A DNA stretch of 64,000 nt from Synechococcus sp. AG-679-C18 (GTDB taxonomy: Bacteria > Cyanobacteriota > Cyanobacteriia > PCC-6307 > Cyanobiaceae), in assembly GCA_003210755.1 (NCBI GenBank), contig QCUL01000007.1, positions 1 through 64,000 of the forward strand. Reading direction: 5' to 3'. Made by a program: the position numbers and the translations under genes. The stretch's first letter is position 1; every line of letters begins with the position of its first letter. Of this stretch, positions 2,699 through 44,173 are shown piece by piece. The notes under the pieces are model-generated. The model had not been told where the DNA came from. It saw only the letters and a program-made list of their open reading frames with translations, and made no database searches.

Positions 2699-3073
2699 AT
2701 GAATGGAATTAATATTCTTTCCGCACTTGTTGGTTCAAGCTTAATTTTTTGGATTGTAATTGGATTGATTACACATGCAAAGTGGATTCAGGAACTTGTA
2801 CAAACTGAGACAGAAAAGATTAATAAGCAAAACTTAGCAATTGAGCAATACGGTTATACTTCAATAAGTTCAACAAATAGAAAATTCTACGCAAAACGTG
2901 GATTTGTATTTGGTTATTGGGATAATGATATAAAATCTGTAAATAATATAGTATCAAGTCAGGACAGTCCTAAAATCTTTGACTTAGCAGGCATTAATTT
3001 AATTGTCTTTACATCTATTTTCTTTTTGATTGCTGTATCAAAAGGATTTTTCAATATTGTTGGTATTAATTAA
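2699..3073 (+). CDS. Hypothetical membrane protein, 124 aa
   Basis: Two hydrophobic segments flank a soluble middle part; AT-rich context. Confidence 0.5.
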   Translation: MNGINILSALVGSSLIFWIVIGLITHAKWIQELVQTETEKINKQNLAIEQYGYTSISSTNRKFYAKRGFVFGYWDNDIKSVNNIVSSQDSPKIFDLAGINLIVFTSIFFLIAVSKGFFNIVGIN

Positions 3074-5893: not shown

Positions 5894-6625
5894 TTAGTTG
5901 ACTTGGAATGCTGATTTGAAAATTAGTATTGATAACCATATTGTTCCTGCTCCAGTAAGCACAAGAGCTGTAATCCAAATTTTGAGTGATGTTCCTGTAG
6001 GTTTATCATAAATAAACTTTTCTATTGATGATTTTTTACTATACAGTAGATGATCAGAAATAGACATCATCAATTTATTTGACGTCAATTTTTTCTGCCA
6101 ATCAAGACCATATCTTGGATATTGTTGATAAAGTGGTATCGTGCCAGATTCTTTTCCGGGTAATATTCGTGAATATTCGTTTGGTGGATTATCATATCCA
6201 AACTTCATCATATATTCCTCACTGTCTAGTACACAATCTATAAATGAGGCAAATCCTTTTTCGGCAATTAAAATCGAATAACTCAATCTTTCAGTGTCAT
6301 TGTATATTTTCCTTCCTAATGCTCTAAATATCACTTGTTCTACTAAACGATAGTTATTATTACACTCTATATACCCTTTCCGAAATCGATCAGAAAGAAA
6401 CAATCCCCGTATAAAATCACGAACTGTTATTGATTGGCTTTTGAATTGTGATTCCAGACATTTTTCGCGGTCACGATCTGTTAAGTGAAAAAATATTTGT
6501 CTATAGCATTTGTTTATTAATAAATCTCTTGCTACGCTTGAGTTATCTTCTTCTATTTTTGTAGTTAGAACATCAACTCTTGAATTTTGGCTTGATTTTT
6601 GGAAGGTTCTCAATGGAAGTGTCAT
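5894..6625 (-). CDS. cpcL: Phycobilisome rod linker, CpcG/CpcL family, with C-terminal transmembrane segment
   Basis: N-terminus MTLPLRTFQKSSQNSRV and RDFIRGLFLSDRFR, NNNYRLVEQVIFRALGR, FIDCVLDSEEYMMKFGYD...RILPGKESGTIPLYQQYPRYG are CpcG-type PBS linker motifs; C-terminus LKIWITALVLTGAGTIWLSILIF is hydrophobic as in CpcL. Confidence 0.8.
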   Translation of the reverse strand: MTLPLRTFQKSSQNSRVDVLTTKIEEDNSSVARDLLINKCYRQIFFHLTDRDREKCLESQFKSQSITVRDFIRGLFLSDRFRKGYIECNNNYRLVEQVIFRALGRKIYNDTERLSYSILIAEKGFASFIDCVLDSEEYMMKFGYDNPPNEYSRILPGKESGTIPLYQQYPRYGLDWQKKLTSNKLMMSISDHLLYSKKSSIEKFIYDKPTGTSLKIWITALVLTGAGTIWLSILIFKSAFQVN

Positions 6626-7079: not shown

Positions 7080-7310
7080 TTATTGTTGCGTTGTGGCAGA
7101 GTACCATTCTGCATTTTGCAATGATACCTGTGATCCTGCAGCTCTCTTTAAGTCGTGCATCCCCTCTAGCTGACGGTAAACAGCTTTCAGTTGTCTTTGG
7201 ATATGGTCTGTATGGGGCATTGAATACAACGTTAGGAGTACATTCTCAAGATGTAGTTTGGCGTCAATCAACAATCGGCAATCGGTGCTTCCTGGTTCGT
7301 AGCTCATCAA
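7080..7310 (-). CDS. Hypothetical small helical protein, 76 aa
   Basis: Minus-strand translation DAKLHLENVLLTLYSMPHTDHIQRQLKAVYRQLEGMHDLKRAAG looks more protein-like than the plus-strand overlaps. Confidence 0.4.
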   Translation of the reverse strand: MMSYEPGSTDCRLLIDAKLHLENVLLTLYSMPHTDHIQRQLKAVYRQLEGMHDLKRAAGSQVSLQNAEWYSATTQQ

Positions 7311-7386: not shown

Positions 7387-7926
7387 CTATGGTTCTCTTG
7401 TTTTTCCGCTCAGTTCTATTAAGTTCCAAGGTCGTTCAATTCCATTTTCTACGGACCAAACACCTCTGCGCAAGTTTTTCGCTTGTTTTTCTAGTCTTTT
7501 ATAGTCTAGGTTTTGGCAATCTCCTAAATATCCGTCATAGAAGAATACCTTTCCCCTCCTTATTAGTTTAGCCCCCAGATCTTCTTTTCCTTGAATGAGT
7601 CGGGCTACAATTCTTCCATAGACATCTCGGCTTCGTAGTTCCATTTCGACTTCCGAACCCTTTTTCAACTCTTTGCTTAGCATGTCCTTAGCTTGTTTGG
7701 CCCAGGGTTTTTGTTCTGATAAAGGAGCTTGAATGCAGGCCAGTCTTATCGCTCTTCCTTCACCTTTTAGTTCTACTAGCACTTCCTGTCCATTATTTAC
7801 TTTTAGGATGGTAACTTTTTCAGTTGGATGATATTGATTTGCTTTTACTTTTAATTGTAAACTTAAGCTTACTAGAAGTCCAATAATTTTGAGATGATTT
7901 AAGTTTATTGTTTTTTTGTTTAACAT
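7387..7926 (-). CDS. Staphylococcal nuclease-like (thermonuclease) secreted protein
   Basis: SNase-like motifs: AIRLACIQAPLSEQKPWAKQAKDMLSKELKKGSEVEMELRSRDVYGRIVARL, ...RRGVWS; N-terminal signal-like segment. Confidence 0.8.
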   Translation of the reverse strand: MLNKKTINLNHLKIIGLLVSLSLQLKVKANQYHPTEKVTILKVNNGQEVLVELKGEGRAIRLACIQAPLSEQKPWAKQAKDMLSKELKKGSEVEMELRSRDVYGRIVARLIQGKEDLGAKLIRRGKVFFYDGYLGDCQNLDYKRLEKQAKNLRRGVWSVENGIERPWNLIELSGKTREP

Positions 7927-8580: not shown

Positions 8581-9228
8581 TTGACTAACTTTACTATGCG
8601 TGATTTTTCCCAATCTGATCGCCTTTATTTTCCAGCTACAGCACGAAACTGTAGACCAATTAGTGATGCACTATCTTTAATTCTACCTAGAAAAGGTTCA
8701 GTTCTTGAAATAGCAAGCGGTAGTGGTGAACATATTGTTGCATTTCAGCGTTCATTTCCTGAACTGATTTGGCAAGCAAGTGATTTCAACCTTGATCATT
8801 GTAAGAGTATTAATGCATGGATTTGTTATGCAAATCTTTTTCCGCAAATGCCATATGCATTGCAGCTTAATGTTTTAGATGAGGAATGGGTTATGCCACC
8901 ATTTGTTCAGTCTCAGTTGATGGTTATCTTGTCTATCAATTTAATTCATATTGCTCCTTGGAGTTGCTGTAAATCTCTTGTTTCTCATTCGGCCGAGTAT
9001 CTCCCAGTTGGTGGTCGGTTGATTTTTTATGGGCCTTTCCGCATGCTTGGTCAACATGTCAGTGATAGCAATCTAATTTTTGATCAATCCTTACGCCAGC
9101 GTAATTCCTTGTGGGGAGTACGTGACCTTGAATCTGTAAAACAACTTTGCATGAATGTAGGTCTGGTTGAGATGAAGGTTATCAATTTACCTTCTAACAA
9201 TTTTTTTGTTTCTTTTATTAAACGTTGA
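8581..9228 (+). CDS. DUF938 family SAM-dependent methyltransferase-like protein
   Basis: N-terminal FPATARNCRPISDALSLILPRKGSVLEIASGSGEHIVAFQRSFPELIWQASDF matches the DUF938 pattern. Confidence 0.8.
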   Translation: MTNFTMRDFSQSDRLYFPATARNCRPISDALSLILPRKGSVLEIASGSGEHIVAFQRSFPELIWQASDFNLDHCKSINAWICYANLFPQMPYALQLNVLDEEWVMPPFVQSQLMVILSINLIHIAPWSCCKSLVSHSAEYLPVGGRLIFYGPFRMLGQHVSDSNLIFDQSLRQRNSLWGVRDLESVKQLCMNVGLVEMKVINLPSNNFFVSFIKR

Positions 9229-39511: not shown

Positions 39512-41065
39512 ATGAAGTTGTCAAGTTTGTTATTTACTACTATTCCACCTTTTTTTAAGGACTGGAGAAATCAAGTTTGGCAATTAATATTTAGTTTTTC
39601 TCTCGTTGTTGTCGTAATTCTACCTTTCATTCTCAATGTTCAACTTTATAATGATGATTGGGGAAGGGCTGATGGTGGAGCATTTCGTTGGGAAACTGAT
39701 GGACGTATTGTGGCTACATTTTTGTATAGAGTTGCTCATTTAGGCGGTTCTCGAACAGTTTATGAACATCCTTTGGGTTCCTTAATTTGTATTCCATTAA
39801 TGTTACTGGGAGGTGTTTTGACTGCATTACTCTTTCAGCGGAGATCATTGATTTGGATTGGAGTATTTTCGGTTTTTCTATTTGGACAACCGTATTTTTT
39901 GGAAAATCTTTCCTACTCTTTCGATTCCCCGTTGATGGTTTTGTCTGTAGTTATGGGATTGACAGCTGCTTGGTTATGCACAAGTAGTATGAACGAGTAT
40001 GGAATGATCATTGCCGGTAGTTTGTTATCTCTTTCTTTATTAATTTATCAACCTGCTAATAATGCATTCTGGATACCAATTTGTATGATTGTTATTTATT
40101 CATTCGGCAACTCAGGCCCTAATTCGAGATCTTATCTAGGTTTAAATATTTCTATAAAACAGTTGTTGTTTAGAGCTTTAGCAATAGAAATAAGTTCTTT
40201 AATGATGTATAAATTTATATTTACTCCAATATTTGTTCTGAGTGATTATGCCCAGCACATTCAAAGATTACCTGCTTCCGGTGAGATCTTTTCTGTAGTC
40301 TTAAGAAATTTCATATTATTTTGTAGTCATATAGCTAGTAATTCTTTCGAGTCATCGCTTGGTATAATGTTGATTATATATATTATTGTCTCAATTATTT
40401 TTATTTCTTTTAAACGCTTAAATCTATATAGCCTTATGCAATCGATTCTATTCTTGTTTGTTTTAGCATTATCACAAGGTTTAGTTTTAACAGTTGTTGT
40501 AAGTGCTCTTTCACCTCGAACATATATAGGAATCGGTGTTTTTCTTGCATCTTTGGCACCTATGGCATGGGATACTATTCATCACTCTATGTGCTTGTCA
40601 TCTATTACTATTTGGCTTCGAAGGATATATCTAGGTATCTTGACTGCAACACTATGTGGTTTGATCAGTTGTTCATTTGCATACGGAAGTGCGTACCGAT
40701 CTCAAAATGAATTGAATGCTTTCTATAGGCAGACAATTGCTAATGAAATCTTAGCTAGCAATTTAGTAATTCATCAAGATATAACCAAAATGGCAATCCT
40801 TGGCCAGTCTCCATTATCACCAATATTAAGTACTACTATAAAAAGCTATCCATTTTTTTCGGACTTAATTAATTCTTTTGGTGGTGATTCTAGAGGTATT
40901 CGTCTTTTTAAATATTATGGTTTAAAACTTAATCGTATAGCACAATCTGAGTTAATTAACGATGGTTTTACTGAGACTTCATCTAGTTTAGTTATTAAAA
41001 GACCTAATTATACTATTTATAACTTTAAGAATGCAATTATCGTTTCATTCTCAAAAATTCCTTAA
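39512..41065 (+). CDS. Polytopic membrane protein, GtrII-like glucosyltransferase family
   Basis: YNDDWGRADGGAFRWETDGRIVATFLYRVAHLG near the N-terminus followed by multiple transmembrane helices resembles GtrII (Glucos_trans_II). Confidence 0.65.
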   Translation: MKLSSLLFTTIPPFFKDWRNQVWQLIFSFSLVVVVILPFILNVQLYNDDWGRADGGAFRWETDGRIVATFLYRVAHLGGSRTVYEHPLGSLICIPLMLLGGVLTALLFQRRSLIWIGVFSVFLFGQPYFLENLSYSFDSPLMVLSVVMGLTAAWLCTSSMNEYGMIIAGSLLSLSLLIYQPANNAFWIPICMIVIYSFGNSGPNSRSYLGLNISIKQLLFRALAIEISSLMMYKFIFTPIFVLSDYAQHIQRLPASGEIFSVVLRNFILFCSHIASNSFESSLGIMLIIYIIVSIIFISFKRLNLYSLMQSILFLFVLALSQGLVLTVVVSALSPRTYIGIGVFLASLAPMAWDTIHHSMCLSSITIWLRRIYLGILTATLCGLISCSFAYGSAYRSQNELNAFYRQTIANEILASNLVIHQDITKMAILGQSPLSPILSTTIKSYPFFSDLINSFGGDSRGIRLFKYYGLKLNRIAQSELINDGFTETSSSLVIKRPNYTIYNFKNAIIVSFSKIP

Positions 41066-41988
41066 TTCATTTAATTATCCTTTCTAATCATATGTCCTAT
41101 CTTTTGCTTTCAATGTTTTTGAATTATGATCATTTTTACTTTTAAGAATCAAGATCAAATGAGTAATGCTTTTAAAGAACATTTAATATAGTGGTTTCAA
41201 GTGTTCAAAATTGATTGCATTAATGCAGAGCTTATCTACAAATAGTAATTCATTCGGCTCGGCTTTTATAATTAAAAGCTATATTAGCTTTTAATTTATT
41301 TAAAAAATAAGTATTATTTTGTGTATATTATGTTGATTGAACGGATTTGTTATTTATACTTTGTGAGAATGATATAGTTTATTGTGAAACTCGGAAATCT
41401 CATATAATTTTCAGCCATTATAATGAATTATTTAATAAAAATTTGTTGTTTGTATTATTAAAAATATTAGTTCTAAAAGATTTTGATGTAAGTTATTGAC
41501 TTTTTGGCTTGACATTAATTTCAAATTTTTCTATAGCTTTAATTATGTTCGAATGTAAAATGATTCTGTTCTCTGTTTTAGCCTTTTTTTAAAAGTAGAG
41601 TTATGTGAATAATTAGGTTCTCAGATCAATTTTTGTCTCAATGATTGAATAGTTTAACTTTGATCAACAGATAATATGCTTTATTCCTTTCGGTTTATTC
41701 CATTATAAATTTATAATTAATCTGATGACTTTTTTGAGAATGTTATAAATTAATCAGTATTGTGTTATGAATTATTTTAAAATGTATCATTAATTTATGG
41801 CACTTTTATGGATAAACTCTAATATATATGCTTTTTGTCTTTTGATAATATCTGTATATGCGTTGGCTTAGGTCTTTCAAATTGTTGTTAATGTAGATTA
41901 CTCAATTATTCATAAATCATTTGTACAATTGTTTGGATTTTATTCTCTAGCATGTGATTAATACGGCATAATGGGTCTATAGATAGAT

Positions 41989-42432
41989 ATGAATTTTATA
42001 AAGGGCATCGAATTAGCTGTTTCATTTCTTTTTCTAACTGGTGTCACTAGTTGCGAATACAGAGCCTCTTCAATGGAGCAGGCTCAATTAGCTTGCGATC
42101 AGTGGGAAAAGTTAGGAATAAAGGCTTCAGGAACCGTTACGATTCAGCCAGAGCAAACGCAAAAGATGGAACGTGCTTGGGATATTGATACTCAATATAA
42201 CTCGGCTTATGCAGAGAATTGGTTGTTTGTCGAGGAGAAGAGACGAGAGTGGATGTCTAAACCCCAAACTCATGAGTTCACCTCATTGCATTCGAGAGAA
42301 TGTGTGTTGGATAAAAAAACTCAGTATGTCTTAGGAAAAGAGAATAAAGAAATAGCAAGTGGCAACTTCAAGTGGATGGATAATGAGGGTGAATGGGAAA
42401 TCGTTAAGCGTTTTCCCTATAATGCCCTTTAA
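41989..42432 (+). CDS. Hypothetical secreted/lipoprotein, 147 aa
   Basis: N-terminal hydrophobic segment ending in LTGVTSCEY (lipobox-like), then a soluble domain. Confidence 0.55.
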   Translation: MNFIKGIELAVSFLFLTGVTSCEYRASSMEQAQLACDQWEKLGIKASGTVTIQPEQTQKMERAWDIDTQYNSAYAENWLFVEEKRREWMSKPQTHEFTSLHSRECVLDKKTQYVLGKENKEIASGNFKWMDNEGEWEIVKRFPYNAL

Positions 42433-42632
42433 ACTGTCTAATTTTATTTTTTTGCAAGAAATTTTTTTAATGATATTAATGTTTAACTTAGGCGTTCTTA
42501 AATTGGAAGTCAAAAATTTCTAAAATCCTGAAAAGTTTATTCTGAACTGGTATTCGTGATTTCACAAAAATAACAACAATCAGCATAATTTTTGGTTTCT
42601 TGTTTAAATGATTGAAATGAATTACTTCTGAT

Positions 42633-43169
42633 TTAATAATCATTATTAAGCTTATAGATGCTCAGTCTTAAAACAGGCCCTAGTGATTTTGATGGTATTG
42701 ATAATTTTGAATCAGGATAAAAACTTGATGACCATTCGTAAATACCTTGTCTTGGGTTATTGCTTGGAATTACAACGCTTGCAGTTTGGCCAGGTTTAAT
42801 TGATGGAGTAAAGATAATCCTAATAGATTTTTGTTTATCATCTATCTTTATTTTTGCTAGTCCAGTTTTTCCCTTTTTACGTAAATTATAAGGGCCTTCA
42901 TAGACTGATGTTTTTGATGTTTGCCAATCCCAGGTTTGTGTTCCACTAATTTGTAACAGTGAGATCTGTTTCAAATTTGCTCCTGCATCTCTCGGTAATT
43001 CAAATGAAATAACAGGGTATGATCGTTGATATGCATTTTTATATGCACTATTAATGGATATATTAGTAGGAGGATTAGTAAAAAATTCTTGCCCATTTAA
43101 CTCTACTGCAATTGATGCAGAGGGTTGTATCGCTAAAACGAGAAGTGTATATAGTGAATTTTTTGTCAT
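42633..43169 (-). CDS. DUF2808 family secreted protein
   Basis: Signal peptide; YPVISFELPRDAGANLKQISLLQISG...VYEGPYNLRKKGKTGLAKIKI resembles DUF2808. Confidence 0.75.
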   Translation of the reverse strand: MTKNSLYTLLVLAIQPSASIAVELNGQEFFTNPPTNISINSAYKNAYQRSYPVISFELPRDAGANLKQISLLQISGTQTWDWQTSKTSVYEGPYNLRKKGKTGLAKIKIDDKQKSIRIIFTPSIKPGQTASVVIPSNNPRQGIYEWSSSFYPDSKLSIPSKSLGPVLRLSIYKLNNDY

Positions 43170-43529
43170 TGATATTATGATCTCCTAATTAGTATGTAAA
43201 TTGGGCTGTTTATTCTAACCTCTTGATTTCTATGCTTTCGTTTGTTTTTGTTTTTTGTATCATTTTTTACATGCTTCTCAATGGATCTTGTAGGGTAACC
43301 TGTGCTGAATACTATTCTTTTAGTGGAGATTGCTTTTTCGATAACTAATTTCATTTGTCGTTTGCCTGTTACTTTTTTAGTCATTTATTTATTAACGAAA
43401 TTATCTCATAGAATTCTTATTCCCTTAACATTAAGTTATCAGCGTCTTTGATTCGATTGAACTATTGATATTCTATTCTATTTCTTATGAAAAGGTCAAT
43501 AGTCTCAATTATCACACCTATACAGTTTG

Positions 43530-43672
43530 TCGAAGCGTAATTTTAAGTCAGCTCGGTTTGGATATCTGAGCAATTTCTCTACTGCAAAGAGTCGTTCCCT
43601 GGGCAGTAGGGAAATTCAGTCATAATGAGCTGTGTTGACTCTTGAATGAGTTTTCAATAGCTCATTTTTTAT
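43530..43672 (+). ncRNA. Candidate small RNA with two hairpins ending in a terminator
   Basis: Hairpin AATTTC-T-CTACTGC/GCAGTAG-G-GAAATT (43572-43616) followed by terminator ATGAGCT...AGCTCATTTTTT (43625-43670); possible -10 CTATACAGT upstream; no ORF. The 5' end is an estimate. Confidence 0.55.
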
Positions 43673-43933
43673 CCCCTTTTTTGTCCTTTATCTTGATTAA
43701 TTAAGTATTGTTGATTTTAATTTATTTGTAAATCTTACTGATTTCCAACCCTTTCTTCCACTTCTACGAACTTGCTTCATATTTATTTTTTATTAACTAT
43801 TATTTTTTTGTGATGATCGAGAGTAGGCCTTACTATCAATTATCAAATTCAATATAGGTAAATATTTGTTGATAGCTCTTTTATCTTGTCAAGCTATCAG
43901 GGATTGTGTATAATATTGCTTATAACGTAATCA

Positions 43934-44173
43934 ATGTTTATGGTGCCAGGTGAGAAAGATTTTTTACATTATTCAAGAAAAGAAATGGTTGATGCGCTCT
44001 CTTCCAAATGGAGTTCTATCCGTTCTGAATCTAAAATTGATAGGCATTTATCTGTTGAGCAGTTTAGAGACCTTGCCCGTACAGAAACGGATGATGAGCT
44101 TTTGTTTGATTGTTATAATTCTGCTAATAATGAAGGTATCTCTTTAAGCGAATTTATGGATCGTTACGTTTAA
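43934..44173 (+). CDS. Hypothetical protein, 79 aa
   Basis: Protein-like acidic/helical composition (ALSSKWSSIRSESKIDRHLSVEQFRDLARTETDDELLFDCYNSANNEGISLSEFMDRYV). Confidence 0.55.
   Translation: MFMVPGEKDFLHYSRKEMVDALSSKWSSIRSESKIDRHLSVEQFRDLARTETDDELLFDCYNSANNEGISLSEFMDRYV

Follow-up and report, generated by a model that had tools for sequence, protein, structure and literature searches.

A cpcGIII-type phycobilisome linker gene with a predicted C-terminal membrane anchor in an AT-rich region of a marine Synechococcus genome

The window, meaning the whole stretch of 64,000 nucleotides analyzed here, lies on contig C7 of a draft genome that is of marine Synechococcus type, 2.63 Mb in size, and 93.7% complete. 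On its reverse strand, positions 5894-6625 hold the linker gene cpcGIII, an open reading frame that begins with ATG, is open throughout, and encodes 243 amino acids. The sole Pfam domain of the product is PBS_linker_poly (PF00427) at residues 32-148 (6182-6532, reverse strand), found with an E-value of 8e-32 and a score of 110 bits, where the cut-off is 28.7. Searches of NCBIfam and the PDB were concordant and identified a CpcG/CpcL-type linker, with phycobilisome linkers throughout as the top PDB matches, including Synechocystis CpcL (8hfq) at 5e-42. The domain is followed by the hydrophobic segment LKIWITALVLTGAGTIWLSILIF, which spans residues 214-236 (5918-5986, reverse strand) and is predicted to form a membrane anchor. 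An earlier note on this DNA had described the same combination of a CpcG-type domain and a terminal hydrophobic helix, and both parts were recovered.

The anchor was called on KD19 hydropathy, for which the segment reached a value of 2.06. When the same protein was shuffled, this value was matched in the last 45 residues in 70 of 20,000 cases (0.35%). AlphaFold2, run on the single sequence, returned a C-terminal helix at residues 213-240 as the only confident segment (pLDDT about 73), and the model outside this helix was unusable (pLDDT < 50). The hydropathy of the tails was bimodal among the linkers compared: CpcGII, CpcGIII, and CpcL of known type all reached at least 1.55, whereas the soluble CpcG tails (n = 23) all remained at or below 0.94. 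All 20 CpcGIII orthologues sampled showed a KD19 of at least 1.62 within the last 60 residues, and this hydrophobicity was kept in each of them, yet their tails are only 6-45% identical to the window tail in ungapped comparison. Against a profile built from CpcGII tails, the window tail scored 5.1 bits and showed no likeness in sequence, and it was also unlike the known tails of PSI-bound CpcL. Since it resembles neither group, the partner of the protein cannot be read from the tail.

The gene lies in the AT-rich region that was proposed earlier, with a GC content of 28-35% at 1-12 kb versus about 45-52% at 16 to 38 kb, and its codons are AT-rich as well (GC3 0.23). A search for a phage origin gave no match among 50,697 phage records. 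A second AT-rich stretch was seen at 39512-44000 (27-33% GC at 40-44 kb), which encodes a 517-aa protein with many hydrophobic segments. The isolation from other phycobilisome genes was borne out, as these genes are located on other contigs, and the surroundings consist of three conserved neighbors and small unknowns. Upstream of cpcGIII lies the gene of a conserved 75-aa protein (beginning MSYEPGSTDC; 7080-7307, reverse strand), followed by an SNase-type nuclease (7387-7926, reverse strand; PF00565, 3e-13) and a DUF938 protein (8581-9228, forward strand; PF06080, 2e-54). Among the genomes used for comparison, we provisionally take G201 to be CC9311, G363 to be CC9902, G364 to be CC9605, and G202 to be WH7803. 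The window neighbors match those of cpcGIII in G201, thus in the copy assigned to CC9311, and cpcGIII occurs with the 75-aa protein, the nuclease, and the DUF938 protein in the same order in G101 and G219 as well. The 75-aa protein is 84% identical to its G201 counterpart, a Pfam search with the G101 orthologue gave no match, and the family also adjoins mpeF in G156 and G169. A glutamine synthetase III-type gene, located between the nuclease and DUF938 genes in the relatives, is missing from the window. Farther away, a 124-aa small membrane-like protein is encoded at 2699-3073 on the forward strand. Its family, for which no Pfam match was found, occurs near cpcGIII in two genera, with homologues of about 40% identity beside the gene in the other genus (L078:10999-11367, L074:10592-10954, and L073).

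With regard to the remaining antenna genes, a PF00427 search of the genome returned 14 domains, which include those of ApcE on C13, of several linkers in a rod region on C31, of a CpcG on C35, of a 302-aa linker on C10, and of the window gene. PF00502 gave 12 phycobiliprotein matches, of which one on C31 was identified as phycocyanin beta and another as phycoerythrin beta by PDB comparison. Three genes are of CpcG type (C31, C35, and C7), and the window copy is linked neither to the rod region nor to either of the two other cpcG genes. With its hydrophilic tail, the C35 copy is the canonical soluble CpcGI, while the rod-region copy on C31 is CpcGII and ends in a hydrophobic helix like the window copy. 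This hydrophobic tail also ruled out the rod-region CpcG as a candidate for the canonical soluble copy. As the genome encodes canonical CpcGI along with phycocyanin, phycoerythrin, and ApcE, the window gene is not a relic, and the condition under which the earlier note would have taken it for one, a genome devoid of pigment genes, does not apply. In 2007, Six et al. described cpcGI as located together with cpcS, assigned cpcGII to the rod region, and reported an unlinked third copy, cpcGIII, in BL107, CC9902, CC9311, and CC9605 (PMC2246261). The isolated position of the window gene, which is likewise a third cpcG copy, is therefore typical for cpcGIII. The word "hydrophobic" was absent in a search of the text of that study, so the tail of cpcGIII was seemingly not described there (PMC2246261).

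In a tree of 77 linker domains, from which the tails were excluded, CpcGIII formed one clade (SH-aLRT 99) within a picocyanobacterial clade of CpcGII and CpcGIII (99), apart from CpcGI, other CpcG, and other CpcL. The window gene is thus placed among the anchored picocyanobacterial CpcGII and not inside canonical rod-core CpcG. It shares one clade (99) with the copies of G201 and G363, and by similarity, the cpcGIII of G364 belongs with those of G381 and G004. CpcGII, here the C31 copy, is the closest paralogous group and is anchored as well, but it differs by its location in the rod region and by the tail motif PPxW...GGxE(I/L)xR, which is absent from CpcGIII. The two structurally known types of CpcL fall in separate places of the tree, namely the Synechocystis type (8hfq, near-identical to a G299 protein) and the Anabaena type (9wd5, related to a G287 protein). 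Uniting all anchored linkers (12 CpcL) in a single clade was rejected with a p-AU of 0.0006, the Synechocystis and Anabaena CpcL being themselves separate, and one clade with the Synechocystis-type group (10 CpcL) was left unrejected at a p-AU of 0.154. An intermixing of anchored linkers and CpcG in trees was already described in earlier work (PMC10053587).

According to the published criterion, CpcL is defined by a PF00427 domain and a C-terminal hydrophobic helix (PMC9415938), and the window protein shares both with CpcL (CpcG2) of Synechocystis 6803 and CpcL of Anabaena 7120. However, it differs from them in its separate tree position, its unrelated tail, the missing FxEQ motif with Q57, and several residues that contact bilins. 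The FxEQ motif, which was noticed here and is not a published criterion, is present in at least 11 of the 12 CpcL from other cyanobacteria, whereas the window domain reads IFFHLTD at this site, and FFH-type motifs are also found in CpcGI, CpcGII, and CpcGIII. Of the bilin-contacting residues in the CpcL structure (PMC10322944), R16, R112, and R181 are kept in the window protein, while R163, R178, and P137 differ and R169 is changed to K. Judged from its sequence, CpcGIII appears to be a CpcG-type backbone with a predicted anchor rather than a simple orthologue of the Synechocystis CpcL. Of the earlier CpcL-like reading, the CpcG-type domain with an anchor and the position outside rod-core CpcG hold, but the gene is a known cpcGIII without FxEQ and accompanies, as a third paralogue, a CpcGII that is anchored as well. 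A rod-only antenna, if one is made, would therefore not hinge on the window gene alone. As cpcGIII was already known in relatives and its anchor was correctly spotted, the find is ordinary but informative.

CpcGI and canonical CpcG share the PF00427 domain and the FFH-type motif with the window protein. The motif would suit a reading of CpcGIII as an additional rod-core linker in ordinary phycobilisomes, with its hydrophobic tail packed on the core or in loose contact with the membrane. That CpcGII, found here to be anchored, was undetected in the phycobilisome preparations of strains analyzed by mass spectrometry favors a rod-only antenna, but it was once seen in the phycobilisome fraction of WH8102 (PMC2246261), and this single occurrence makes an anchor compatible with core-containing phycobilisomes. 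However, we consider such a role of CpcGIII quite unlikely, given that a hydrophobic helix of at least 19 residues is conserved in all orthologues sampled, where CpcGI has a hydrophilic core-docking tail, and that the linker-domain tree sets CpcGIII away from the separate CpcGI clade.

Orthologues of cpcGIII were found in 33 of 65 genomes, 16 of them among the 31 surveyed from the genus of the window and 17 among the 34 from another genus. The gene is present in G201, G363, and G364 and absent in G202, which, together with the pattern of mpeF, agrees with the table published in 2007 (PMC2246261). The window copy is 60-63% identical to its orthologues (62% to the CC9311-assigned copy of G201), with the anchor and core motifs kept. 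The dN/dS ratios between orthologues were 0.02-0.22, with dS saturated for pairs that include the window gene, and by this measure purifying selection acts on the orthologues. Decay or selective neutrality, as for an accessory gene of an AT-rich island, would be in keeping with the patchy presence, which changes 13 times on an NrdJ tree, with the AT-rich codons, and with the long branch of the window gene in the linker tree. However, NrdJ of the same genome is likewise long-branched, so the fast rate is a property of the genome and not of cpcGIII, and decay is very improbable in view of the intact frame, the retained anchor and motifs, the low dN/dS, and the conserved neighbors. When the distribution was compared with that of mpeF, 18 genomes had both genes, 24 neither, 12 only cpcGIII, and 1 only mpeF (Fisher p = 1e-5 as a simple count). 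In phylogenetically independent pairs, the association was just about 4:0 (median p = 0.125), and it is therefore a lead and not a result. AraC regulators (PF12833) were considered as a marker of type IV chromatic acclimation and dismissed, as their paralogues were too numerous to type strains.

For cpcGIII, the domain, anchor, orthology, constraint, and presence of pigment genes are established. We propose, with a probability of roughly two in three, that this third CpcG paralogue is a membrane-anchored rod linker that works like CpcL and provides a rod-only antenna for photosystem I. By homology with CpcG and CpcL, the PF00427 domain would be housed within the hexamer at the base of a phycobiliprotein rod. 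A single membrane helix would replace the hydrophilic tail by which CpcG docks on the allophycocyanin core, so that CpcGIII would most likely nucleate a core-less rod tethered to the thylakoid, presumably with phycocyanin at the base and phycoerythrin outward. The tether would most plausibly lie next to photosystem I, as for CpcL in Synechocystis and Anabaena. Membrane insertion, the rod-only complex, and PSI as the partner are derived from CpcL biochemistry (PMC10322944), and a PSI/NDH association of CpcGIII would likewise follow the example of the CpcL of Synechocystis and Anabaena. Beside the CpcGII of the rod region, CpcGIII may serve as an accessory or condition-specific copy.

In 21 of the 33 cpcGIII loci, distributed over two genera, a gene for a 4Fe-4S single-cluster ferredoxin (PF13370, 103-130 aa; for example L070:11176-11556, L078:9085-9405, and L077:8537-8929) directly adjoins cpcGIII, with one locus that was counted as lacking it, G219, being cut by a contig end. 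In 13 of these loci, which come from both genera, the ferredoxin gene immediately follows cpcGIII on the same strand, and in the other 8, which belong to one clade, the two genes lie tail-to-tail. The linked ferredoxins cluster separately from the core ferredoxin (support 99/100), the gene of which adjoins a DUF1257 gene in this genome. Within the genus of the window, a second ferredoxin copy is almost confined to genomes that carry cpcGIII, the exception being the fragmented assembly G218, where two similar copies lie on short contigs. The pairing suggests that, at least in some strains, CpcGIII is linked to the flow of electrons around PSI. Taken further, CpcGIII could chiefly be an anchored rod linker for assembling an NDH/PSI/ferredoxin complex of cyclic electron flow, with the rod as a scaffold more than a light harvester for PSI, and CpcL indeed participates in NDH-PSI supercomplexes elsewhere (PMC10322944). 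However, gene adjacency does not equal interaction, and no ferredoxin gene was found beside the window cpcGIII or its closest orthologues, no remnant of one near the window gene, and no second copy in this genome; we regard this role as unlikely and retain the rod-only antenna for PSI as the preferred reading. The anchor of cpcGIII and the adjoining ferredoxin gene in many relatives provide a testable lead on how PSI is fed in ocean cyanobacteria.

Anchors were also found among the phycoerythrin-II linkers. The 302-aa linker on C10 (G000 C10:12928-13836; L066:4929-5837) is an MpeF orthologue by phyletic pattern and similarity to MpeD, and like the other MpeF sampled, it carries a hydrophobic helix at its C-terminus. 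Its tail scored 30 bits with the CpcGII tail profile, and the values were 30-49 bits for 16 MpeF tails and 35-39 bits for two MpeG tails, compared to at most 8.6 bits for shuffled tails (n = 5,000), at most 0.3 for soluble CpcG tails, at most 17.5 for CpcGIII tails, and 21 for one outside CpcL. Five further MpeG tails are near-identical to one another and hydrophobic (KD19 1.6-1.7). By these scores, the phycoerythrin-II linkers share a CpcGII-type anchor, and no report of anchors in MpeF or MpeG was found in the open-access literature. Six et al. did not find the two proteins in phycobilisome preparations and proposed low expression or odd biochemistry (PMC2246261); a membrane anchor would account for their absence.

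It is conceivable, albeit rather doubtful at present, that CpcGII and CpcGIII for phycocyanin rods and MpeF or MpeG for phycoerythrin-II act as a set of anchored linkers, whose core-less antennas would feed PSI, one of them starting with the blue-light pigment phycoerythrin-II, and with a ferredoxin paired to CpcGIII in many strains. Spectroscopy of WH7803 implies that energy is transferred to PSI more quickly than to PSII (PMC5784009). For the split of phycobilin-absorbed light between the photosystems of the abundant marine Synechococcus, the anchored linkers offer concrete, deletable candidates, of which the MpeF/MpeG anchors above all, together with the ferredoxin pair, are the parts that a specialist would test. 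As minor observations, a DUF1330 gene follows mpeF on C10, and a similar gene lies beside the G156 copy. Finally, five equal-scoring PBS linker matches with an exact spacing of 2,437 bp were seen at G193:C1:533194-543490, a pattern suggestive of a rod-gene unit repeated in tandem.
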